64,000 nucleotides of DNA, from positions 1,612,001 to 1,676,000 of the forward strand of contig NZ_CP101323.1 in assembly GCF_024300825.1 (NCBI RefSeq). The letters run 5' to 3'. The DNA is from Natronomonas gomsonensis (GTDB lineage: Archaea > Halobacteriota > Halobacteria > Halobacteriales > Haloarculaceae). The notes under the pieces are model-generated. The model worked only from the letters and a program-made list of their open reading frames with translations, was not told where the DNA came from and searched no databases. The position numbers and the translations under genes are program-made. This document shows positions 52,942 through 63,784 of the stretch, in pieces; the first letter of the stretch is position 1, and each line of letters starts with the position of its first letter.

Positions 52942-54106
52942 TTACGGCAGTCCGGACGACTCCGGTGCGACTGTCAGGTTCCGCGTGAACCGCATCCGGT
53001 CGGTCTGGTACGTCATCTCGACGGAGGTGTCGTAGACGGCCGTGGTTGTGTAGGGGTCGTCAGGCGACGGTGAGGAGCTGAAGATATTTGGTTCACAGGA
53101 GTCCGGGTCAAGAAGACAGCCTAGACCGCTGAGTAGCGAGCCGATTAGCCCACCGTCCTCGTATTCATCGTTGACTTTGCTTTCGAAAGAACCGCGTTCC
53201 TCGTCAACGATGAACTGGTAGGAACCATCCACCTCGTCGGCGCCGACATAGAAGATATCGTTCCGTTCTTGGCCAAACGCCTGCTTGAGTTCCGGGCAAC
53301 TCACTTCACCGTTGTCACCGACGAGTGTCCCCTCAGTAAGCCGAACGTTCACCGAATCACCCTTCGCACTACACACTGCGCGTAGGTTCTCCTCACCCCC
53401 CTCGATTTCGGTGAGGACTGTGGCAACGGAGTCATTGTCGACGTCGTTGACAAGGTAGATTCGCCACATCTCGTTACTTCCGGTCGTCCGGTTGGTTTGA
53501 ACGAAGAACTCGTCGCTTCCTGTCAGTATCTCGGAGCCTAAATCGCCGATAGCATCAAGCAGACTCTGGCGGGTCTCCTGTAGGGAAGCCCGTTCGACAG
53601 TCATCTCGAAGTTCCGGGTCTTCGAATCAGGAGCGACAATCCAAGTAGTGCGGTCTTCGATACCCAGCGGGTCCAGCGTGAGACCAGTAATTTCTGCTAC
53701 AATATCGTCGTCACCAGGCATGAAATCGGACGTATCCGACTGAATGACCCGCGTCCCGTTCTGCATCGCCGCCACCTCGGAGGAAGCGAGTCGTCCGTTT
53801 CGGACGCTCGACGCCATCTGGTGTTGGTTCCACGTCGAGACGTTCTGTCTAATCGCCGACCGGCGCTCGGTGTAGCTTGCGGTGTCGCTGTTGTAGTTCG
53901 CCTCTCGCATCGACCGGGTGAGTCGTTCGGTCGTCGGGGGGGTCGTCCGCGAGCGCCTGTGAGGACCCCTCGACCTCCCGCGTCGAGAGGTTCTCCGTGT
54001 AGATGGCGCTGTTGACCACGAGGGCGAGGCCGACCAGAAGCACCGCTAACAGCAGCCCTGTGATGAGTATCATCTGCCCACGTTCCCCGCGTATCGAGTT
54101 CCACAT
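52942..54106 (-). pseudogene. Pilin-like exported protein gene with +1 frameshift at a C7 tract
   Basis: Translation from ATG 54106 (MWNSIRGERGQMILITGLLL, then AVLLVGLALVVNSAIYTENL) gives a type IV pilin-like or haloarchaeal DUF7261-like N-terminus with one membrane helix. At seven cytosines on the minus strand (53936-53942) the frame breaks. If one C were missing, ADDPPTTERLTRSMREANYN would join directly to the long second frame, giving 387 residues ending NLTVAPESSGLP. So the gene is either phase-variable, recently inactivated or misassembled by one base. The joined protein would be membrane-anchored with an extracellular domain of about 350 residues (cysteines in AVCSAKG, VSCPELK, GCLLDPDSC). 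Confidence 0.8.
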
Positions 54107-54188
54107 ACCCCGTTCTCCCTCGAACTTGCCATTGGAGCAGTATAAGTCCGTGGACCGTATCGACAATCGTTCCGATGGGTCAACCGAC

Positions 54189-54485
54189 CTACCCACCGCC
54201 GATTTCGATGACGACGGTCAATTCGGTTTTGCCACCCGGACCGACGGCCTCGATATCGAATCCGACGGCCAACAGTACTGCCTCGTCGGCGCGGTTCTGT
54301 ACCACGACACCGCCGTTGGATTCACACGCACCGAACCGCTTGCCGGCCCCACGCTGGCAGTTCTCGTTGGTCCACTCGCGTGCGGCGGTGTCGTTGTAGG
54401 CCACGTCGCGGGCGACGCCTTCCTCCAGTGCGGCGGACTCCAGCGTGTCTATATCACCCCCGATTTCATGGGTATATTGTTTCTG
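54189..54485 (-). pseudogene. 5'-truncated remnant of a pilin-like/exported protein gene
   Basis: An open frame reads THEIGGDIDTLESAALEEGV, then ARDVAYNDTAAREWTNENC and further to AVGFDIEAVGPGGKTELTVV, then the stop at 54189. In-frame TGA at 54486-54488 cuts off the N-terminus, and the transposon end lies about 75 bp further. A start is lacking unless GTG in the middle is used. The layout, 82 bp ahead of the frameshifted pilin-like gene on the same strand, indicates an operon of haloarchaeal exported proteins broken by the insertion. Confidence 0.6.
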
Positions 54486-54561: not shown

Positions 54562-54581
54562 CCCACGGCTAACGCCGTGGG
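54562..54581. repeat. Transposon-end palindrome, right end of the IS605-type element
   Basis: CCCACGGC TAAC GCCGTGGG, the same palindrome as in element 2 with one loop change. It overlaps the tnpB stop codon (54569-54571). Confidence 0.75.
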
Positions 54582-55723
54582 GTTCCCCTACCGGGGGTTG
54601 AACCCACGGAAACGGAGAGGTTCGCAGGTTCGTCGTCGCGTGGGACGATGACCTGCGTTTCGGGCTGTGCCAGTCCAGCCCCCGCCTCGGACAGCGGTTT
54701 CGAGAACTTGCCCAAGGCTCGTTTGCCGATGTTCAGCGCACCGTTCTTGTCGGCGTTGTCGTCCAGCCCACACTCGGGACACTCAAAGCGCCCCTGCGTC
54801 TCTCGGACGCCCTCGCAGGCACAACGGTTGCACGTTTTCGACGTGTCGTATTCTTCGACCAACTGTACGTCGATACCCGCGTCGTGGGCCTTGTACTCGA
54901 TGTAGTTCAGCAGGCGGGCAAACGGCATCTTGTGGGTCTTGTCGTTAACGTACCGCCCTTTGTCGTTGTCCTTGCGAATCCCGCCGAGATCGCCCACGAC
55001 GATAATTGCGTTCCGTTCTTCAGCCGCTTCTACGATTTGGCGAGCAATCTTGTGGAGGCGGTCGTCGACCTTCCGTGCTTCCGCGTCACCGATACGCTCG
55101 ACTACCTGCTGTCCCTGCCGGGGTTTCGCTTTCCCGATGGACTTCCGCAGTTGCTTGTAGTGTTCGCGGATACGACGCACTTCCTCGCCGTAGAACGTGG
55201 TCTTGCGGTCGGAGAGGAACGCGCAGGTAGCGACCCACCGTGCGCCCATGTCGATGGCCAGGACGTCAGCGTACTCGTCTTGGACGGCCACAGACCGCTT
55301 GACGACGAGATGGACGTACCAGTCACCGTCACGCCGCACCAGTTCACTGTCCCGAATATCGCCCTCGCAGACGAGGTGTTCATCCTTCTGGGGGAGGTGT
55401 GCGGGACACCAGATGGAGTTGCCCCGTCCGCGCTTGGGGTCGTAGACAGGGACTTTGACCCACCACGACGAGAGAACGGTGTCCTCGTCGTAGGACACGT
55501 CGAACACGTCGTTGCGGAGAACGACAGGCTGTTCGGTGTCGGGGTTCGGGGCTTTCTGTCGCTGGACTTTCGACGCCTGCTGGTCGGTCGCGGAGTAGAG
55601 GTTGGCGTCTCCGCCGTGAACTTCGGTCTGGAACGCCTCGTACTCACGGGCGAGCAGGTCAGCCTTCCTGTTGGTCAACGAATGGAGTTTGACCCGCACC
55701 GTGGTTGAGACGGTCCGTTGCAT
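54569..55723 (-). CDS. tnpB: TnpB with displaced RuvC-II glutamate, copy 3
   Basis: A 384-residue TnpB, distinct in sequence from copies 1 and 2. Asp158 in LAIDMGARW and Asp325 in DNADKNGALNIG are the first and third RuvC residues, and the zinc ribbon CNRCACEG...CPECG lies between (about 298-318). At the usual place of the catalytic Glu it has IIVVGDLGGIR with Gly244; Glu290/Glu291 in LVEEYDTSKTC are candidates for a relocated glutamate. It lies 2 bp after tnpA. It may be active with a rearranged site, as reported for some TnpB groups, or be a dead nuclease. Confidence 0.9.
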   Translation of the reverse strand: MQRTVSTTVRVKLHSLTNRKADLLAREYEAFQTEVHGGDANLYSATDQQASKVQRQKAPNPDTEQPVVLRNDVFDVSYDEDTVLSSWWVKVPVYDPKRGRGNSIWCPAHLPQKDEHLVCEGDIRDSELVRRDGDWYVHLVVKRSVAVQDEYADVLAIDMGARWVATCAFLSDRKTTFYGEEVRRIREHYKQLRKSIGKAKPRQGQQVVERIGDAEARKVDDRLHKIARQIVEAAEERNAIIVVGDLGGIRKDNDKGRYVNDKTHKMPFARLLNYIEYKAHDAGIDVQLVEEYDTSKTCNRCACEGVRETQGRFECPECGLDDNADKNGALNIGKRALGKFSKPLSEAGAGLAQPETQVIVPRDDEPANLSVSVGSTPGRGTPRR

Positions 55724-55725
55724 CG

Positions 55726-56139
55726 TTATTCACCTGCTTGGGAGTCGATGTACTCCTCAATGACCTCGCTGGATACGTCGCCCGCACTTGAGACGAAGTA
55801 CGAGCGCGTCCACAGCGAGGGCAGACCGAAGTCGAACTGGTCGCGGAGGTGGCGCGAGGAGTAGCCCTTGACCTGTTGCATAATCTTGTTCGGGGCAAGT
55901 GTCGGGTCGCCCGTGATGAACAGGTGTACGTGGTCGGGGCGAATCGCCAACTCCAGTATCTCTAACCCGAGTTCGTCGGCTTTCTCCTCGATGAGTGCTT
56001 CGAGCCGGTCGCGTACCTCGCCCTCAAGCACCGATTTGCGGTACTTCGGGCACCAGATGAAGTGGTACTGGAGTTTGTGGACGTTAGTACGTTCCCTGTC
56101 GAACCCACGAGGCATCGTCAGTATGTAGACGTCGGTCAT
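55726..56139 (-). CDS. tnpA: Y1 (HUH) transposase TnpA
   Basis: A 137-residue single-strand transposase of the IS200/IS605 family. The HUH motif is His70-Val-His72 in IRPDHVHLFI and the nucleophile is Tyr130 in EEYIDSQ. Length and the N-terminal HKLQYHFIWCPKYRK are typical. It nicks and joins single-stranded element ends recognised through hairpins, and the end palindromes here are its probable targets. It could also serve element 2, which has the same left end but no tnpA. Confidence 0.93.
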   Translation of the reverse strand: MTDVYILTMPRGFDRERTNVHKLQYHFIWCPKYRKSVLEGEVRDRLEALIEEKADELGLEILELAIRPDHVHLFITGDPTLAPNKIMQQVKGYSSRHLRDQFDFGLPSLWTRSYFVSSAGDVSSEVIEEYIDSQAGE

Positions 56140-56520: not shown

Positions 56521-56548
56521 CGATTGAACCAAGACGTCGGTTCAATCG
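56521..56548. terminator. 10-bp inverted repeat at the VirB4-like stop codon
   Basis: CGATTGAACC (56521-56530) pairs with GGTTCAATCG (56539-56548) around an 8-base loop and includes the stop codon at 56542-56544. It ends the minus-strand conjugation-like operon. No T tract follows. Confidence 0.45.
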
Positions 56549-58653
56549 TCCCCCGTAGCGGCGTCTTTTCCTTCAGTACGGAACTCATCTGACTGCAGGC
56601 TCTCTTCGACACTCTGGTTCGATTGTGGTTCGTAGTCAATGACAGCCTTTTCAGTCGGTAATGCTCGAACTTCCATTCCCCGCCACTCTCCGTCGATTCC
56701 GAGTAATGCCTGCGAGTAACCTTTCTCATCGCTCCCGGGAATCGCATCTTGGACGAATCGCATTTGGGCGTAGTTCAAACCGAATTCATCAGCCCACTGT
56801 TCATCCATCCCGTCGAGTTTGTGGAACTGCTTGATGGCACATTGGTCAAGAATCATCTCTGCTTGCGGCTGCTGGAAGAACTCATCGACGGTCTGTGTGA
56901 CGAGGCGAATCGAGAGGTCGTGGTGGCGGTGATGGCGGAATATCGTTTCGAGGTATTCGAGTGTTGCCGAATCAGAGAGAATGTATCTCGCCTCGTCGAC
57001 GACGAGAACGACCGATTTGTCTGTGGTCTTGGCACGCTCGTAGACGAGGGTTATGAGTAACTCCATCAGGAGACTCGTATGCCCACCGATCGACCCACCC
57101 TGCTGCTGGAGATCCAGATACACGATATCTTCATCTCTGATATCGAATTCACTGTGCCGACCCAAATTCTCCAGCTGCCCATTCTCCTCGAACGGTCGCA
57201 ACTGATCAAGCAACCAAACTACGTCTGATTGGATCTTCTCACTCTCCGCTTCGACGCGAACGACGTACTCTTCCGGATTCTCGTTCATCGATTCGAGGAT
57301 ATCCAGTACGTCGCGAACCGTGGGACTCTCGCGGTCGTGTGTCGAGACATCTTCGGTTATTCCCTTCCGGTCGTACGCCTCGTCGATCGCCAATTCCAAC
57401 GTGGTCCGTCGATCGCCCAGCTCCACATCTCGGTGACCGAAGAAGTTCGTGAAGAAACTCACCGCACGATTACGACGCTCCTTGAGGAGGCTTGCATCAT
57501 CCCCTCGCGCATTCAACACATGCTCCGGTGTTGGCTTGATTTCTAGGGGGTTCAGTCCAAGCATCCCGCCGACAGTAATCCGTCTGCCACCGAGGGCCTC
57601 TGCGACACCGGCCCAGTTGTTCAGCGGTTCGAGAATAACGCCGATTCGGTCCGGATCTTGTTCGATTGAGCGAATGAAGTTCTGCTTGGCGCCAAAGCTC
57701 TTCCCCGAGCCAGGATCGCCCACAGTGAACATCGCGTAGCCATCCTCACGGCCGAAGGGGTCGATGACGAGGGGACTCCGCGTGTCTTTGTGGATACCGA
57801 ACTCGACGCCACCTTCCTCGAGTATCGTCGCATTGTGCGGTGAGGCGAGCAACGCCCCGACAGCCCCGCCAAGTGCGACAGCGCTTCGATCAAGTTCGCT
57901 CGGACCGATCGGTGCCGCTGACTGGAGTGCAAGGTCCTGTGTACAAATCGCCGTCTTTGGCTCGACTCTCGCAGGCTGTTCGCGGAGTGTCGCCCGGACT
58001 CGCTTGACTGCCTGGCTTAGCTCATCACGAGTGTCCGCTCGCACCGTGATGACGAGTTCTTTATCGAACACTTTCTGGCCGTTCTCGACGGCCTTGTACG
58101 TCGCCTCAGCACGGTTCGCTCGTTCTTGGAGATACGACCCGCGGACGGAGCGTTCCAGTCGTGCGTCGGCCTGGAGGTTGTCAGCAACCCGTTGTAGTTC
58201 GTCACGAGCGCGGGGTTGGTTCTTCGGAACGATTCGGCTCGTCAGGTCGAACTCCACGTCGGTCAACTCGAACAGTCCACTGAGATAGCCGTCTTTCGGC
58301 GCATCGGGATACTCCGCGACGTACAGCGTCGTCGTCCACTGCTCACCGACTCGAGCGGCGCGGGTTTCCCATGTGATTGCCGCTGGCGCCATGAGGTCCT
58401 GTTGGCGTTCGCTGAGATCGTCGAGTACTGCCCACTCTGCTTCGGCTGCTTCAAGCGTTTCGTCCTCGAGAAGCTCGCCGAGTTCGACATCCTCGCGTTG
58501 GCGGTCACGCCACCAATTCACGACGTTGGCGATGAGAATGAGCGCGATTACTCCACTGACGCCGTAGAGCAGGACGCCTTCCGATGAGAGGACTGGTGGT
58601 AGCGCCTCGGACAACTCCGAAACCTGCGGTGGCAATCCCTCGGTGCTGACCAT
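56542..58653 (-). CDS. VirB4/TraC-like conjugation ATPase
   Basis: A 703-residue protein with one N-terminal membrane helix (about 27-45), a long charged region, and a C-terminal RecA-like ATPase. Walker A is GDPGSGKSF (312-320); LNPLEIKPTP follows the family pattern, Walker B is VVLVVDEARYIL (near 550) and QTVDEFFQQPQAEMILDQ contains the sensor region. This is the VirB4/HerA class of motor used in archaeal conjugation and DNA or protein transfer. The N-terminal helix is unusual for bacterial VirB4 but occurs in haloarchaeal versions. It overlaps the next upstream gene by one base. Confidence 0.88.
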   Translation of the reverse strand: MVSTEGLPPQVSELSEALPPVLSSEGVLLYGVSGVIALILIANVVNWWRDRQREDVELGELLEDETLEAAEAEWAVLDDLSERQQDLMAPAAITWETRAARVGEQWTTTLYVAEYPDAPKDGYLSGLFELTDVEFDLTSRIVPKNQPRARDELQRVADNLQADARLERSVRGSYLQERANRAEATYKAVENGQKVFDKELVITVRADTRDELSQAVKRVRATLREQPARVEPKTAICTQDLALQSAAPIGPSELDRSAVALGGAVGALLASPHNATILEEGGVEFGIHKDTRSPLVIDPFGREDGYAMFTVGDPGSGKSFGAKQNFIRSIEQDPDRIGVILEPLNNWAGVAEALGGRRITVGGMLGLNPLEIKPTPEHVLNARGDDASLLKERRNRAVSFFTNFFGHRDVELGDRRTTLELAIDEAYDRKGITEDVSTHDRESPTVRDVLDILESMNENPEEYVVRVEAESEKIQSDVVWLLDQLRPFEENGQLENLGRHSEFDIRDEDIVYLDLQQQGGSIGGHTSLLMELLITLVYERAKTTDKSVVLVVDEARYILSDSATLEYLETIFRHHRHHDLSIRLVTQTVDEFFQQPQAEMILDQCAIKQFHKLDGMDEQWADEFGLNYAQMRFVQDAIPGSDEKGYSQALLGIDGEWRGMEVRALPTEKAVIDYEPQSNQSVEESLQSDEFRTEGKDAATGDD

Positions 58654-59750
58654 TACGCATCGGACCTCCGTTCTGACTGTCCAACGGTGGGTTGACCACG
58701 GAGAATGGGGCCGACGTGGTCCGGGTCGTATTCCTCACCGTTCCAGAACTCCATGCCGAGAACGAACAACTCGACTGTGCTGAGACGACGACCCGTCCAT
58801 CCGGAGACGTTCTCGATGAATTCGGTTTCGACGCTTCGAATTCTGTCATCGAGTTTCTCGAACATGGCTGCTCGGAGTTCGGCATCTTCGAAGCTCTCCC
58901 GACGGGTCACAAACGGCGTGAACAGCCAGCCAACAAGCGGGAAATCGGTGAGTCGCTCGCCCGGTGTTGGTTCCTGTTCGTATCGCTGATACACTTCGAG
59001 TTTCTCTACCTCGACCCCGAGGAAGTAGCGCAACTGCTGTGTGTCGGCGAGTTCGGTCGGTCGTCGGTCGCGGTATTCCGTTAGGAGGTCATGGAAGGCG
59101 GGGTTTGCTTCGACATCCGGGTCATCCAGACGGTCGTCGAGCTTTCGAACGAGTCGCTCGACGGGAAACGACCGTGTCGTCGCATAGAACGTCAGCGGAT
59201 ACTCGAGTTCGTTGTTCGCGAACTCCTCGGCAGCGTCTTGGACCGCCATCCAGTCATCCGACATCGCGAAATCCATGTTCGCCGGCTCGACTTCGAGAAA
59301 CGCCTCCATCGTCCCATCCGTTCGCTGGACGGCACCGGCTCCAGGCCACGCTCGCCGAACGTTGGTCAACTCCTGTGTCGATTCCTCCGGCGTGAACGGC
59401 GTGTATTCGACGAGTCCACCACTCGTCGAGTCGTTTGTCGCCACCGCTCGATGATTGCGAGTTTCACGCGGTCGTCGGAACAGATACCGGAGCATATCGG
59501 TCAGCCAATCCCACGCTGTCTGTTGGGACGGGGCTGCGTAGACGACTGCAACGCCGACTGTCAGACCGACCAACGCGAGTCCGATGGTGACGAGTTCGAT
59601 ACCCAGTGTACTCCCCACCAGCAACCCGCCGAGCGGGAAGCCAAGCAGGATACCTACATCTGCCTCCCTGATGTTCACGACTGGAAGGCGATTGTCTTCT
59701 CCGAGGCGATTCATGATTCGCCGTGCTGCAGCGCCGTTGTTTCCGGACAT
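58653..59750 (-). CDS. VirB4-associated membrane protein (PrgI/VirB3-like region plus soluble domain)
   Basis: A 365-residue protein. Residues about 30-75 form two hydrophobic helices (VGILLGFPLGGLLVGSTLGI, then GLALVGLTVGVAVVY), reminiscent of VirB3/PrgI. The following basic loop DMLRYLFRRPRETRNHRAVA faces the cytoplasm, and the rest is soluble and resembles the N-terminal part of VirB4 proteins (VEYTPFTPEESTQELTNVRR, MEAFLEVEPANMDFAM). In bacteria VirB3-VirB4 fusions are common; here the pieces are divided between this gene and its neighbour. The assignment is by position and architecture. Confidence 0.68.
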   Translation of the reverse strand: MSGNNGAAARRIMNRLGEDNRLPVVNIREADVGILLGFPLGGLLVGSTLGIELVTIGLALVGLTVGVAVVYAAPSQQTAWDWLTDMLRYLFRRPRETRNHRAVATNDSTSGGLVEYTPFTPEESTQELTNVRRAWPGAGAVQRTDGTMEAFLEVEPANMDFAMSDDWMAVQDAAEEFANNELEYPLTFYATTRSFPVERLVRKLDDRLDDPDVEANPAFHDLLTEYRDRRPTELADTQQLRYFLGVEVEKLEVYQRYEQEPTPGERLTDFPLVGWLFTPFVTRRESFEDAELRAAMFEKLDDRIRSVETEFIENVSGWTGRRLSTVELFVLGMEFWNGEEYDPDHVGPILRGQPTVGQSERRSDA

Positions 59751-59751
59751 G

Positions 59752-60846
59752 CTAGTAGTATGCTGGGTCGTTCTCTTTGCGTCGATACGCCGAGTCGTCC
59801 GCCTGCTGTTCTGTGGCGCCTTGATTCGGCGACCCGTCTCCTGAGGAAAGCTGAGACGCCATTACTGATCCGGCACCGGCTTTCGGTCCCCATCGAGCGG
59901 TCGCCGCCGCTGCGCCCGGGCCTGCGGCGTAGCCGGCGCCTGCTGCTGCTCCAATTATCACGGCACCACGCCCGGCTCGACTCAGCGTTCGTGCTGCGAG
60001 CGGCGCAGCGTATCGGAACGTCTTCCACGTGACGTACAGGCCGAGTACCGGCAGCGAAATGACGACGAGATACTCGAGGAAGCTGCCGTCGACGGCCAGC
60101 TGTTGGTCACCAGTAAAGAGGAGTTCATACCCACGGAAGAGAACCGCTGCTGGGAGCGGTAAGACGGCAAGCGGGATGAACTGCGCACAGAGTCGTCGAG
60201 CGATTGTCGAGAGAATTGGGACGTTACCGTAGGCGACCGCGATGCCGATTGGCATCCCGTACAGATAGACGTACAACAGCACTTCTCGGATGAAGAAGAG
60301 CGCTTTCAGTGCGACCATCGATGTCCCGCCGAGCGTCGCCATGATGAGCGTCAAGCCCGGTGTTCCGGCAGCGTGTGGGAGTAGTGCGACGAGAGACTCC
60401 CCAACGCTAGCCATGTCCGGAATCAGTCCAATGGTCAGTGCGTCAACGACGTAGAGTGCGGCAACGCCGAGCCAGTACCACCCGACGATGAGGAATGCGC
60501 CGATCCAGGAGCTCTTCCGAGCGCGTCTGTCTTCGAATGCGCTTCCAACATCGAAGATTCGGATGAAGTGTCGCGTTTGAACGCTGAGGAAGAGAATCAG
60601 CAGCGCGAAGGCCATCGTTTCACCTGCAACTGTCGACTCGTAGATGCTGTGCCACAAGCCGTCGCTCTCTGGTGGTTTCGCGAATATTAATTCCGTCCCC
60701 TGGCCTTCTGGGAGGGGTGTATCCAATAGTCCTTGAACGACATCTTCGTAACCCGAAATCAGTTCTTGGGCGAACCATTCAGTAACCCGCTCGACTATGT
60801 CCTCAAACCACCGAATTCCGTAGTCTGAAAATGGTATACTCGCCAT
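59752..60846 (-). CDS. VirB6/TrbL-like polytopic membrane protein
   Basis: A 364-residue membrane protein with about seven or eight helices between residues 75 and 310 (GETMAFALLILFLSVQTRHF, IGAFLIVGWYWLGVAALYVV, LFFIREVLLYVYLYGMPIGI, LEYLVVISLPVLGLYVTWKT). A Gly/Ala-rich segment ends the membrane part, and a soluble charged tail (SAYRRKENDPAYY) closes it. Such an arrangement is that of VirB6/TrbL channel components. It lies 1 bp upstream of the VirB3-like gene in the same operon. No other motif identifies it. Confidence 0.7.
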   Translation of the reverse strand: MASIPFSDYGIRWFEDIVERVTEWFAQELISGYEDVVQGLLDTPLPEGQGTELIFAKPPESDGLWHSIYESTVAGETMAFALLILFLSVQTRHFIRIFDVGSAFEDRRARKSSWIGAFLIVGWYWLGVAALYVVDALTIGLIPDMASVGESLVALLPHAAGTPGLTLIMATLGGTSMVALKALFFIREVLLYVYLYGMPIGIAVAYGNVPILSTIARRLCAQFIPLAVLPLPAAVLFRGYELLFTGDQQLAVDGSFLEYLVVISLPVLGLYVTWKTFRYAAPLAARTLSRAGRGAVIIGAAAGAGYAAGPGAAAATARWGPKAGAGSVMASQLSSGDGSPNQGATEQQADDSAYRRKENDPAYY

Positions 60847-60848
60847 TG

Positions 60849-61628
60849 CTATTCTCCAGCGAATTCAACTGTACAAGTTCCGTTTCCTTCTGGGGTGTAC
60901 TCTATTCCAAGCTGAGTGGATACGTCCCCCTCGCTAATTTCCGTCTCTAACAATACCTCTGCTTGAGGTGTTTCGTAGTCGTCTCCGCATTCTTCATCAA
61001 CATTGGCGAATGGCAGGTTCGTGCTGAAAATAGTCTCCTCAGTTCCGGGATAAATAGTTACGCGCTCTTGCTCTCCGAACTCATCTGACTCATCGTAGAT
61101 ACCAGATCCTCTCTCAGAACCGTCCGAGGGGTTTGGCACATCACCTTGTATTAGCAAGCCCTCAATTGCTTCAGGTCCGGTTCCTCCGTTCTCTATCCTA
61201 ACGAGTATCTGTCGTTCAGGAAACTGTAACTCCTCAGGCATCCGATTCAGATGATTCGCCCCAACGCCAACCTCAACGATTTCTAAATCTGGCTCAATAA
61301 CGGTCGTCGTTTCAGCGACCGTCTCTTCGCCATCTGTAGCGAGAATTCGATACTCTCCAGGGACGTATTCTGTTCCGATGTCGAACGCCACCCGCGTTAC
61401 ACCGGCACTGAGGTCAGTCTCAGCGAACGCCTCTCCATCCGGATTAACGACTGAGATGGTGTCGGCATCGAGTGACTCGGACATCGAGACGACGAGCTGT
61501 TGGTCCTCGACAGAGGCCTGCTCAAACTGCCCGCTGTCGTTGGGTGATTCCGTATTCTCCGAGCAGCCACTGAGTGCGGCTGCTCCGGCGATGCTACACA
61601 GGAGGGTTCGTCTCGTTGGTTGACTCAT
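60849..61628 (-). CDS. Tat lipoprotein, module-associated
   Basis: A 259-residue exported lipoprotein. MSQPTRRTLLCSIAGAAALSGCSEN has a twin-arginine pair and a lipobox ending at Cys22 (LSGC), so it is probably lipid-anchored on the outer face. The mature part is a set of beta-sandwich repeats (VEDQQLVVSMSESLDADTIS, VTRVAFDIGTEYVPGEYRIL, LEIVEVGVGANHLNR), similar to haloarchaeal Ig-like surface proteins. It is 2 bp upstream of the VirB6-like gene and overlaps the large secreted protein gene by 4 bp. No binding partner can be inferred. Confidence 0.72.
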   Translation of the reverse strand: MSQPTRRTLLCSIAGAAALSGCSENTESPNDSGQFEQASVEDQQLVVSMSESLDADTISVVNPDGEAFAETDLSAGVTRVAFDIGTEYVPGEYRILATDGEETVAETTTVIEPDLEIVEVGVGANHLNRMPEELQFPERQILVRIENGGTGPEAIEGLLIQGDVPNPSDGSERGSGIYDESDEFGEQERVTIYPGTEETIFSTNLPFANVDEECGDDYETPQAEVLLETEISEGDVSTQLGIEYTPEGNGTCTVEFAGE

Positions 61629-63361
61629 GGATTCTCACTCCAGCGAAGGAAACTGCCGAGGCGAAGACCGCCGTACAGGGCAACCAGCAGCGGCGTAAAC
61701 CAGAGGCCGAATCGGATGGCCAGAGACGCCCATGCGGAAACGGTCGTGAGTGGGTGCCAGCGGACGACTGTCGAATCGCCGGCGTAGGCGGGGTAGTGGT
61801 CCAGCCACGACCCCGGTTCGTATTGTGCGGTGTAGGCGCCCGGTTCAGTCAGGTGGACGACTGCTTCGCCTGTCGCGTTCGTCTTGACTTGCTGTCCGTC
61901 GATCTCGATATAGCCGTCCCGCGAGAGGTCGGCAATGGGTGCGACTCGCTCGTCGTCAGCCAGTACGATTGGGTCGCCCGTGTCGGCTTCACGTAGCGTC
62001 AGCCGAACGGTCGCAACTGACTTGTTTTGCTGCAGCACTGCCGCCGAGAGATTCGTTTCACGGAGTGGGCGTTCTCCCTCGGCGGGTGGCAGTCGGGGCT
62101 CGGTTTCGACGCCGTTGACGATGCCGTGGACAGTGACTGCCTCACGGTCGACACGTCGTGTCCGGACGGCGATTCCATACGTCGTCTCGTAACGTCTCTC
62201 GACGATGTCGACGGTGACGTTTTCGTGGAGATCGGCTTTCGGACTACGGCGTGTCTGTCCCCACTGATCCAGAATTGTGGGACCATCGTACTCCGGTTTG
62301 GTCTGTGGTCCAAGGCGTGACGGATATGCATGGACGTACACCGGCAGAGCGGTCGAGTCGACACGCTCGGAATCCGTTGCGGTGGCCCGAACGAGGTCGT
62401 CCCACTCGGTCTCGCGAGCGGTGAAGAACCGCCAGATGCCGCGGACTCGAACGCGATCATCCTCGGTGAGTCGATACCCCTGCCACGGCGCCGTCTGGTA
62501 GACTGAAACGCCCGTCTCACCGTTCGGATATTCGGTGTAGTGGACCGTCGCCTGAAGATCGTACACGTCGACACTGCGGCTATCGGTTACGGTCACCGAG
62601 TCGGTGAGGTGCGTCCACGTGATGGATTCGTGAATGCTCCCGTCGTCAAGCCGAGTCCGCGTGATTTTCGTGCGGTTGATGCTCGCGTTGATGTCGGCTT
62701 CTATCCGTAATTGTTCGACATCGTCGTCAAGTTGATAGCCGATTTCGGGACGGTGTGTTCCGTCTGTGCGAGCGATTTCTTCATCGTCTGCATAGAGACG
62801 GATTTCCGAAATTCTGTGCGTCTCCAGTTCCCACTTCGTCGTCGTGTTTCCAACCGTCTCGTCGGCTGGGAGTGCGACGCGGTAATCGATCGTTCCGAAC
62901 ACCTCTCCCTCGGGTGCGACGTAGAACCAGCTATCGCCAGATGCAAGGTACGTTTTCGTCGCCGGCGAGAGGGCAAACAGCGTCGCGTGTGCGTCCTTGA
63001 TGTACGTCGAGTTGGTGCGATTCGCTGTCGGCGGGAATACCGACGTACTGCTATCGCCTGGCTCGTATTGGCTGTGGGCATACCGCGTCCACTGGCCAGC
63101 CGTATCCGGGGGTCGACGGAACGTCATGTCCGTCCCGTTGGCAATTTGATGGACCGTCGTCCGGTTTTCACCGTAAGCGGCTTCGTACGCCGATTCGTTG
63201 ACGTACGTTTCGGCAGACTGCTTGGCCCACAGCGTCGCTTCCTCACTTTCGTTGAGGCCACTATCTGTGGTCTCTGGCCGTGGTGGATCTGCACTTGCGA
63301 CGGTCGTGAAACCGATGACTAACAGCATGGCAAATCCCAGGCTGAGTCCTTGGGAGGCCAT
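61625..63361 (-). CDS. Large secreted/anchored protein of the conjugation-like module
   Basis: A 578-residue protein. MASQGLSLGFAMLLVIGFTT is a Sec signal peptide with a cleavage site near ASADPPR. The extracellular part (about 28-530) is beta-rich and acidic with several N-glycosylation sequons (NESE, NRTT, NGTD, NSTY, NTTT), and an Ig-like segment lies near 475-525 (EAVVHLTEPGAYTAQYEPGS). A C-terminal helix (about 545-565, FGLWFTPLLVALYGGLRLGS) anchors it. It has the look of a cell-surface or pilus-assembly component. It is likely co-transcribed with the genes on both sides. Confidence 0.7.
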   Translation of the reverse strand: MASQGLSLGFAMLLVIGFTTVASADPPRPETTDSGLNESEEATLWAKQSAETYVNESAYEAAYGENRTTVHQIANGTDMTFRRPPDTAGQWTRYAHSQYEPGDSSTSVFPPTANRTNSTYIKDAHATLFALSPATKTYLASGDSWFYVAPEGEVFGTIDYRVALPADETVGNTTTKWELETHRISEIRLYADDEEIARTDGTHRPEIGYQLDDDVEQLRIEADINASINRTKITRTRLDDGSIHESITWTHLTDSVTVTDSRSVDVYDLQATVHYTEYPNGETGVSVYQTAPWQGYRLTEDDRVRVRGIWRFFTARETEWDDLVRATATDSERVDSTALPVYVHAYPSRLGPQTKPEYDGPTILDQWGQTRRSPKADLHENVTVDIVERRYETTYGIAVRTRRVDREAVTVHGIVNGVETEPRLPPAEGERPLRETNLSAAVLQQNKSVATVRLTLREADTGDPIVLADDERVAPIADLSRDGYIEIDGQQVKTNATGEAVVHLTEPGAYTAQYEPGSWLDHYPAYAGDSTVVRWHPLTTVSAWASLAIRFGLWFTPLLVALYGGLRLGSFLRWSENP

Positions 63362-63364
63362 CGG

Positions 63365-63784
63365 TTAGAACGGCGTCAGATCCACACACTGAGCAACTGG
63401 GAGGTCCATGGTTCTGCCGGCCAAAGCGAACAGCGGGCCGAGAAGCACGAGAATGACGGCGGATTTCAGAGCCGTTATTTTGTGCTGTTTGATTCTCGAT
63501 AGCTGGTCCCGACTCAGCGTAAACATCTCCGCGACGGACTCGCCTTGCCAGACGACGAGCAACCCCATCAGTCCGAGGGCTGTCGTTAATTGGAGGAAGC
63601 CTTCGATCATTGAGGCGAGCGTCCCTGAGTCTTCTTGACAAACTGGGTTCGCTGATTCTTGAGCAGCAGCAGGTTGTGCGGCAACGACGCCGACAACCAG
63701 GAAGGTGATCAAGAGGAACTGGAGAAGTCGCACTACTTTACCGCTCTCTTGCGTCGGGATCCAAAAGCATGGATTTGCGTTCAT
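63365..63784 (-). CDS. Small membrane protein with signal segment (TrbC/VirB2-like position)
   Basis: From ATG 63784 a 139-residue protein (alternative starts are ATG 63844 and GTG 63733, the last giving VRLLQFLLITFLVVGVVAAQ directly as a signal peptide). After AQPAAAQES there are two more hydrophobic helices (about 65-85 and 108-125) separated by a basic loop, with cysteines in NPVCQEDSG and AQCVDLTPF. Size and layout, signal plus two helices, fit a VirB2/TrbC-like pilin-type subunit, but homology is not demonstrated. It is the first gene of the operon, 3 bp before the large secreted protein gene. Confidence 0.55.
   Translation of the reverse strand: MNANPCFWIPTQESGKVVRLLQFLLITFLVVGVVAAQPAAAQESANPVCQEDSGTLASMIEGFLQLTTALGLMGLLVVWQGESVAEMFTLSRDQLSRIKQHKITALKSAVILVLLGPLFALAGRTMDLPVAQCVDLTPF

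Follow-up and report, generated by a model that had tools for sequence, protein, structure and literature searches.

A fixed six-gene operon of haloarchaea that probably encodes a minimised conjugative type IV secretion system

Introduction

Haloarchaea are notorious for gene exchange, which is usually credited to cell fusion. Six intact, tightly packed open reading frames (ORFs) on the minus strand of the Natronomonas gomsonensis chromosome raise the question of whether these organisms also carry a dedicated machine for moving DNA. The genes occupy positions 56542-63784 of the stretch analysed here (the window: 64,000 nucleotides, positions 1,612,001 to 1,676,000 of contig NZ_CP101323.1), and an earlier note on this DNA read them as a compact haloarchaeal machine resembling a type IV secretion system (T4SS). 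That overall reading is supported on both of the points on which the note had staked it, namely a conserved gene order and a link of two membrane proteins to T4SS families. On the basis of sequence comparisons and predicted structures, we consider it likely that the six genes encode a minimised, relaxase-less conjugative T4SS that exports the DNA of the element carrying it. Haloarchaeal homologues of VirB4 and of coupling proteins, among them those of pNG500 of Haloarcula marismortui, were known by 2011 at the latest (PMC3158045), and conjugation-like genes are said to be present on haloarchaeal megaplasmids (PMC8628078). A 2025 review of T4SSs mentions no haloarchaeal system, and in the open-access literature searched we found no paper describing the whole set of six or seven genes or the two additional envelope proteins.

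A conserved operon confined to Halobacteriales

Transcription runs from a pilin candidate through a surface protein, a twin-arginine translocation (Tat) lipoprotein, a TrbL/VirB6 protein and a gene referred to here as gene 2 to virB4 (Table 1). The successive junctions are a 3-bp gap, a 4-bp overlap, a 2-bp gap, a 1-bp gap and a 1-bp overlap, in agreement with the earlier description of six minus-strand genes separated by 1-3 bp or overlapping; the membrane topologies proposed at the same time also agree with the predicted transmembrane (TM) helices, the Tat motif and lipobox, and the signal peptides. This order was kept in all 38 further loci that were fetched, although in six of them one component, mostly the lipoprotein, could not be identified as a gene of its own. 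A set of 80 named GTDB loci includes 69 with all six genes in order and none with a different order, the other 11 having an unrecognised component or running off short contigs. The gene order is thus conserved across Halobacteriales loci, and because the same six genes recur in the same order in relatives and show low ratios of nonsynonymous to synonymous substitution (dN/dS; see below), the arrangement is far beyond chance. A coupling-ATPase-like gene comes next after virB4 in 56 of the 80 loci, while several relatives from the window's own clade have a PrimPol gene in its place.

The Pfam family of the TrbL protein, PF19590, serves as a signature of the module. Of the 292 Halobacteria genomes sampled, 142 have a match above the family cut-off and 143 have one at E 0.001, often with more than one copy per genome. 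When 393 genomes were drawn from across the phylum, matches were confined to Halobacteriales, and relatives outside that order were accordingly dismissed for this draw. A viral origin was also considered and rejected, as the TrbL alignment retrieved no relative from IMG/VR.

Several relatives have a TFIIB-like gene a short distance upstream of their pilin gene (L080:3617-4543, L142:5756-6679 and L059:3736-4668); TFIIB homologues have been reported in integrative and conjugative elements (ICEs) of Thaumarchaeota.

Motor and membrane core

The last gene of the operon encodes, by sequence, a VirB4-family motor. It matches the NCBIfam models conju_CD1110 (E 4e-35) and VirB4_plasma (E 2e-31), both below their equivalog cut-offs, and gives weak Pfam matches to TraG P-loop and CagE_TrbE_VirB. 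Its profile matched the VirB4-like structure 4ag5 in the PDB at 2e-11, and the Walker A motif GDPGSGKS (in some sequences with T for P) and the Asp-Glu of Walker B are kept in 14 diverse sequences. Together with the N-terminal TM helix, this confirms the membrane-anchored VirB4 ATPase of the earlier note. The VirB6-like polytopic channel candidate is borne out by about six TM segments and a PF19590 score of 401 bits (E 6e-120; cut-off 23).

Gene 2 gave no significant match to sequence families, VirB3, PrgI and TcpE among them (a weak TcpE match appears in 1 of 21 members). Its AlphaFold2 (AF2) model, of moderate confidence, predicts TM helices at residues 31-49 and 52-72, and the best solved structures found with Foldseek are R388 TrwK/VirB4 chains (E 0.03-0.1). 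Comparison with R388 VirB4 (VIA-align) gave Z 10.7 over 178 aligned residues at a root-mean-square deviation (rmsd) of 6.8, and Z 9.5 over 162 residues at 3.8; these matches cover the cytoplasmic part only, and most of them rank above unrelated structures. A simple paralogue of the adjoining VirB4 was considered and discarded, the profile comparison being not significant. The label VirB3-like, given to this protein earlier, would fit the two TM helices and the VirB4-like predicted fold, and is better replaced by a fuller name: we infer that gene 2 combines candidate VirB3-like helices with a scaffold resembling the VirB4 N-terminal domain (NTD). Both membrane proteins can thus be linked to T4SS families, TrbL through PF19590 and gene 2 through its predicted fold, which is the weaker half of the link. 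Searches of the PDB gave no convincing sequence relatives of gene 2, TrbL, the surface protein or the pilin candidate.

Envelope proteins and pilin candidate

Arginines 6 and 7 of the Tat motif and the lipobox cysteine C22 of the lipoprotein are invariant in 34 sequences, as are two further cysteines, so that its designation as a Tat lipoprotein holds. Some relatives show weak matches to Ig-like (immunoglobulin-like), MG2 and TAT_signal families. The surface protein, described earlier as a signal-peptide protein with glycosylation sites, does have a signal peptide, 13 N-x-S/T sites and a C-terminal helix at residues 541-571, and its AF2 model (predicted local distance difference test, pLDDT, 73.5) suggests a membrane-anchored series of beta-sandwiches. 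The membrane-proximal domain (435-534) of the model resembles an alpha-2-macroglobulin MG domain (Z 8.6, rmsd 1.9, 71 aligned residues), a predicted match that speaks to the fold only. The surface protein was also considered as a fusexin, and there was no fusexin among the fold matches listed.

VirB2 pilins combine a signal peptide with a two-TM architecture and a basic loop. The same arrangement is predicted for the small protein encoded first in the operon, in which a 24-sequence alignment reveals a signal peptide, a TM segment, a conserved Lys/Arg-rich loop, a second TM segment and two conserved cysteines. Sub-threshold Pfam matches to TrbC/VirB2 in 7 of the 24 sequences and to T4SS_pilin in one would also fit a VirB2-like pilin. 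No VirB1 or VirB8 was recognised in the six-gene operon.

A plasmid copy spread between genera and under purifying selection

The strain carries a second copy of the module on its 107-kb plasmid (C2), in which the order runs from the module to the coupling ATPase and on to PrimPol. This copy (7,101 bp) shows 100% identity to the module on a plasmid of Halorubrum trapanicum, and its identity to plasmids from Halorarius, Salarchaeum, Haloprofundus, Haloglomus, Halorientalis and Halorussus is 91-96%; the carrier genera include members of Natronomonadaceae, Halobacteriaceae, Haloferacaceae and Haladaptataceae. By contrast, the aspS and pcrB segments of genomes from the same genus are mostly 73-86% identical, with the nearest at 93%. 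The VirB4 tree needs 25 changes of host family, against a minimum of 5. By these comparisons the plasmid form has spread between genera and families. The six plasmid genes have dN/dS values of 0.01-0.14 in three comparisons and are therefore under purifying selection; in a fourth, with an apparently recombinant locus, the lipoprotein reaches 0.20. MOB-suite types all 76 plasmids with a TrbL relative as non-mobilizable. With a fixed module on plasmids so typed, and its signature gene in about half of the sampled species, plasmid mobility in this class is probably underestimated.

This distribution bears on the alternative that the module is a host-domesticated machine importing partner-cell DNA for repair, like Ced of Sulfolobales and Ted of Thermoproteales, which are built on the same VirB4, VirB6 and VirB2-like core (PMC9905601). 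The present genes, however, sit on plasmids and on an element with replication genes and a coupling ATPase, they move between families and, unlike a housekeeping repair system, they were not found in about half of the sampled species; DNA import for repair is thus improbable here.

A chromosomal island with plasmid-type genes

The operon belongs to a variable region of about 46 kb that continues past the end of the window. The earlier note had proposed looking beyond 64 kb for a VirD4-like coupling ATPase, and one is indeed found in the same island, about 27 kb past the window, where it matches TrwB_AAD_bind with 36 bits (cut-off 20.5). This part of the island also holds a NrS-1-type PrimPol, an operon encoding PolB, a protein of 92 aa and one resembling RadA, and genes for ArdC and for an OB-fold protein resembling single-stranded DNA-binding (SSB) proteins. 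An operon of similar make-up, with PolB, a small protein and an inactivated RadA, is known from a thaumarchaeal element (PMC6563490). Because the six genes, the coupling ATPase, PrimPol, ArdC, the OB-fold SSB-like protein and the SWIM protein are common to the island and C2, the copy on the chromosome resembles a plasmid-like element that has integrated. Of the two functions suggested earlier, transfer of DNA in an integrated element or transfer of proteins, the first is favoured and protein export disfavoured, since the island contains a coupling ATPase as well as replication genes of plasmid type.

The left edge of the island is an inversion breakpoint. Relative to a genome of the same genus, about 280 kb are inverted: synteny stops at window position 54164 (chromosome ~1,666,164), the other breakpoint lies at ~1,945,247, and topA, the next gene in that genome, sits here near 1,945,000 on the opposite strand. 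Between this breakpoint and virB4 lies an IS200/IS605-type insertion sequence (IS), called from Y1_Tnp (E 2e-38) and Cas12f1-like TNB (E 3e-19) matches in Pfam. It follows virB4 directly, in the slot that a coupling-ATPase or PrimPol gene holds in many relatives. No clean empty site emerged from the comparison, as the left partner topA is about 280 kb away and inverted and the right-edge partner carries other sequence.

Proposed mechanism and its difficulties

In the mechanism that we propose, the six genes would encode the envelope-spanning part of a T4SS carried by an integrated plasmid-like element. The coupling ATPase would deliver element DNA to the TrbL/VirB6 channel, and VirB4 would power assembly or transport. 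Gene 2 may provide VirB3-like anchoring and, with its VirB4-NTD-like part, a scaffold for the ring of ATPases, and the small protein would form the pilin. Together, the lipoprotein and the Ig-like surface protein with its membrane anchor could bridge the membrane and the S-layer, standing in for outer-membrane or cell-wall parts, and perhaps grip the partner cell. Because no relaxase is recognised, the DNA would exit double-stranded, or else some enzyme that escaped recognition would nick it first.

Several observations weigh against this mechanism. The gene 2 model reaches a pLDDT of only 64, and the pilin assignment consists of architecture and sub-threshold Pfam matches. The incongruence between VirB4 and host families reflects mobility of the DNA and does not prove that the machine caused it. 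The relaxase models PF03432, PF08751 and PF01076 had no match in the whole genome (other families and the origin of transfer, oriT, were not searched for), which extends the earlier statement that no relaxase was in view. At the chromosomal copy, the coupling ATPase is detached from the operon and inverted relative to it, and an IS lies beside the inversion breakpoint. The integrase and attachment (att) sites that the earlier note had also proposed to look for beyond the window did not turn up: there is no match to the tyrosine integrase model PF00589 in chromosome positions 1.66-1.72 Mb (serine recombinases were not searched for), the two examined island edges share no 15-mer as an att repeat, and no tRNA was found at the edges.

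The relaxase result would also fit a T4SS for protein secretion or contact-dependent antagonism, delivering effectors to other cells. Relaxase-less T4SSs of proteobacteria are often protein exporters (PMC3158045), and a role as adhesin is conceivable for the large surface protein. Effector delivery is opposed by the coupling ATPase and the DNA-processing neighbours (PrimPol, the SSB-like protein, ArdC and PolB), and very few archaeal relaxases are recognised at all (PMC3158045); we give it little credence. Proven archaeal conjugative plasmids have no recognised relaxase either, and its absence is common for archaeal conjugative elements.

The state of the island edge raises a different doubt, which concerns this copy and is compatible with conjugation at the level of the family: the chromosomal copy could be what is left of a plasmid that integrated and is now decaying or stranded, with only the plasmid copy at work. 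As the coupling ATPase is displaced, an IS and an inversion mark the edge, and neither an integrase nor att repeats were found, this copy may indeed be stranded and perhaps no longer mobile alone. Its six ORFs are intact, however, dN/dS against chromosomal relatives is 0.10-0.27 where computable, with dS near saturation, and close relatives carry the same six genes on Halorarius and Haloglomus chromosomes. On balance, a defunct remnant seems unlikely, if clearly less so than the other alternatives considered here.

Haloarchaea have been described as swapping DNA via cell fusions (PMC8628078), plasmid vesicles are known (PMC10818511), and the islands that bear the haloarchaeal fusexin fsx1 also carry VirB4 and TraG/VirD4 ATPase genes (PMC9259645), which could suggest that DNA moves by fusion or vesicles and that the module serves cell-cell contact only. 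A VirB6 channel, a VirB4 motor and a coupling ATPase in fixed order would then be superfluous, and no fusexin was recognised near the module, no search with a fusexin profile having been made; a contact-only role is hardly probable. Conjugative export of element DNA accordingly remains our preferred explanation. Its boldest extension, in which conjugation of double-stranded DNA without a relaxase operates class-wide, with the Ig-like S-layer-spanning protein and the Tat lipoprotein replacing the cell-wall or outer-membrane part of bacterial T4SSs, as a main plasmid route beside cell fusion, is put forward only tentatively and we regard it as rather doubtful.

Relation to known systems

By its component families, and not by mating-pair formation (MPF) profiles, the module resembles the minimised Gram-positive and archaeal T4SSs of type MPF-FATA (ICEs with CD1110-family VirB4). 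Common to both are VirB4, VirB6/TrbL, a coupling ATPase and, as a candidate here, a VirB3-like protein, and neither has an outer-membrane core complex. Unlike MPF-FATA systems, the haloarchaeal module has no relaxase from any of the three families tested; its operon contains no recognisable VirB1 or VirB8, and it adds a Tat lipoprotein, an Ig-like surface protein and, as predicted, a VirB4-NTD-like domain on gene 2. Ced and Ted share the trio of VirB4, VirB6 and a VirB2-like protein, the last a candidate in the haloarchaeal module, and the TedC pilin likewise has a cleavable signal peptide; they are described as domesticated import systems, whereas the haloarchaeal genes lie on plasmids or integrated elements that also carry replication genes and a coupling ATPase. 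The pNOB8/pING plasmids of Sulfolobus, pT33-3 of Thermococcus and thaumarchaeal ICEs likewise have VirB4 and VirD4-type ATPases and no known relaxase, and in the thaumarchaeal ICEs homologues of VirB6/TrbL and VirB3 are present as well. The thaumarchaeal modules are mostly not syntenic (PMC6563490), in contrast to the fixed six-gene operon, which occurs in Halobacteriales only among the genomes searched.

The class is already known, through archaeal VirB4/VirD4 systems and Ced/Ted; the module with its two lineage-specific envelope proteins is what the literature searched did not describe. If our interpretation is right, this would be an unusually complete archaeal conjugation module, comprising a motor, a channel, a pilin candidate, a coupling ATPase and two envelope proteins, and useful for asking how DNA is moved in archaea when no relaxase is recognised and an S-layer has to be crossed.

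Features of the locus and its surroundings

Table 1. Genes of the module and neighbouring features; positions are those of the window, with the numbering continued past its end (window-scale).
Feature	Position	Strand	Remarks
VirB4-family ATPase	56542-58653	-	703 aa; one N-terminal TM helix
Gene 2	58653-59750	-	365 aa; two N-terminal TM helices and predicted cytoplasmic VirB4-NTD-like domain; VirB3-like candidate
TrbL/VirB6 polytopic channel protein, PF19590 (TrbL_3)	59752-60846	-	364 aa; ~6 TM segments
Tat lipoprotein	60849-61628	-	259 aa; probable Ig-like/MG2-like domain
Surface protein	61625-63361	-	578 aa; predicted tandem beta-sandwich ectodomain, C-terminal membrane anchor helix
VirB2-like pilin candidate	63365-63784 (ATG 63784), or start GTG 63733	-	
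IS200/IS605-type insertion	54569-56139	-	tnpB 54569-55723; tnpA 55726-56139
Coupling ATPase	90466-93945 (chromosome C1 1702466-1705945)	+	TrwB_AAD_bind E 4e-9; TraG-D_C
PolB, 92-aa protein, RadA-like protein	66024-69059		one operon
NrS-1-type PrimPol	96401-97525		

Other genes of the island and its edges can be listed on the same scale. At the left edge a DUF7261-like gene is seemingly split (53849-54196 and 52942-53910), which could reflect a frameshift. A 203-aa ORF at 71081-71692 (L004:3081-3692), similar to the N-terminal part of the type I restriction protein HsdM, is apparently cut short and adjoins an IS200/IS605-type pair. Near the right edge lies a T4-type contractile tail-tube gp19 gene (PF06841, 86.7 bits) at 98373-98873 (L005:10373-10873), followed by a second, similar-looking gene at 98916-99566; the two could be the remnant of a contractile injection system.

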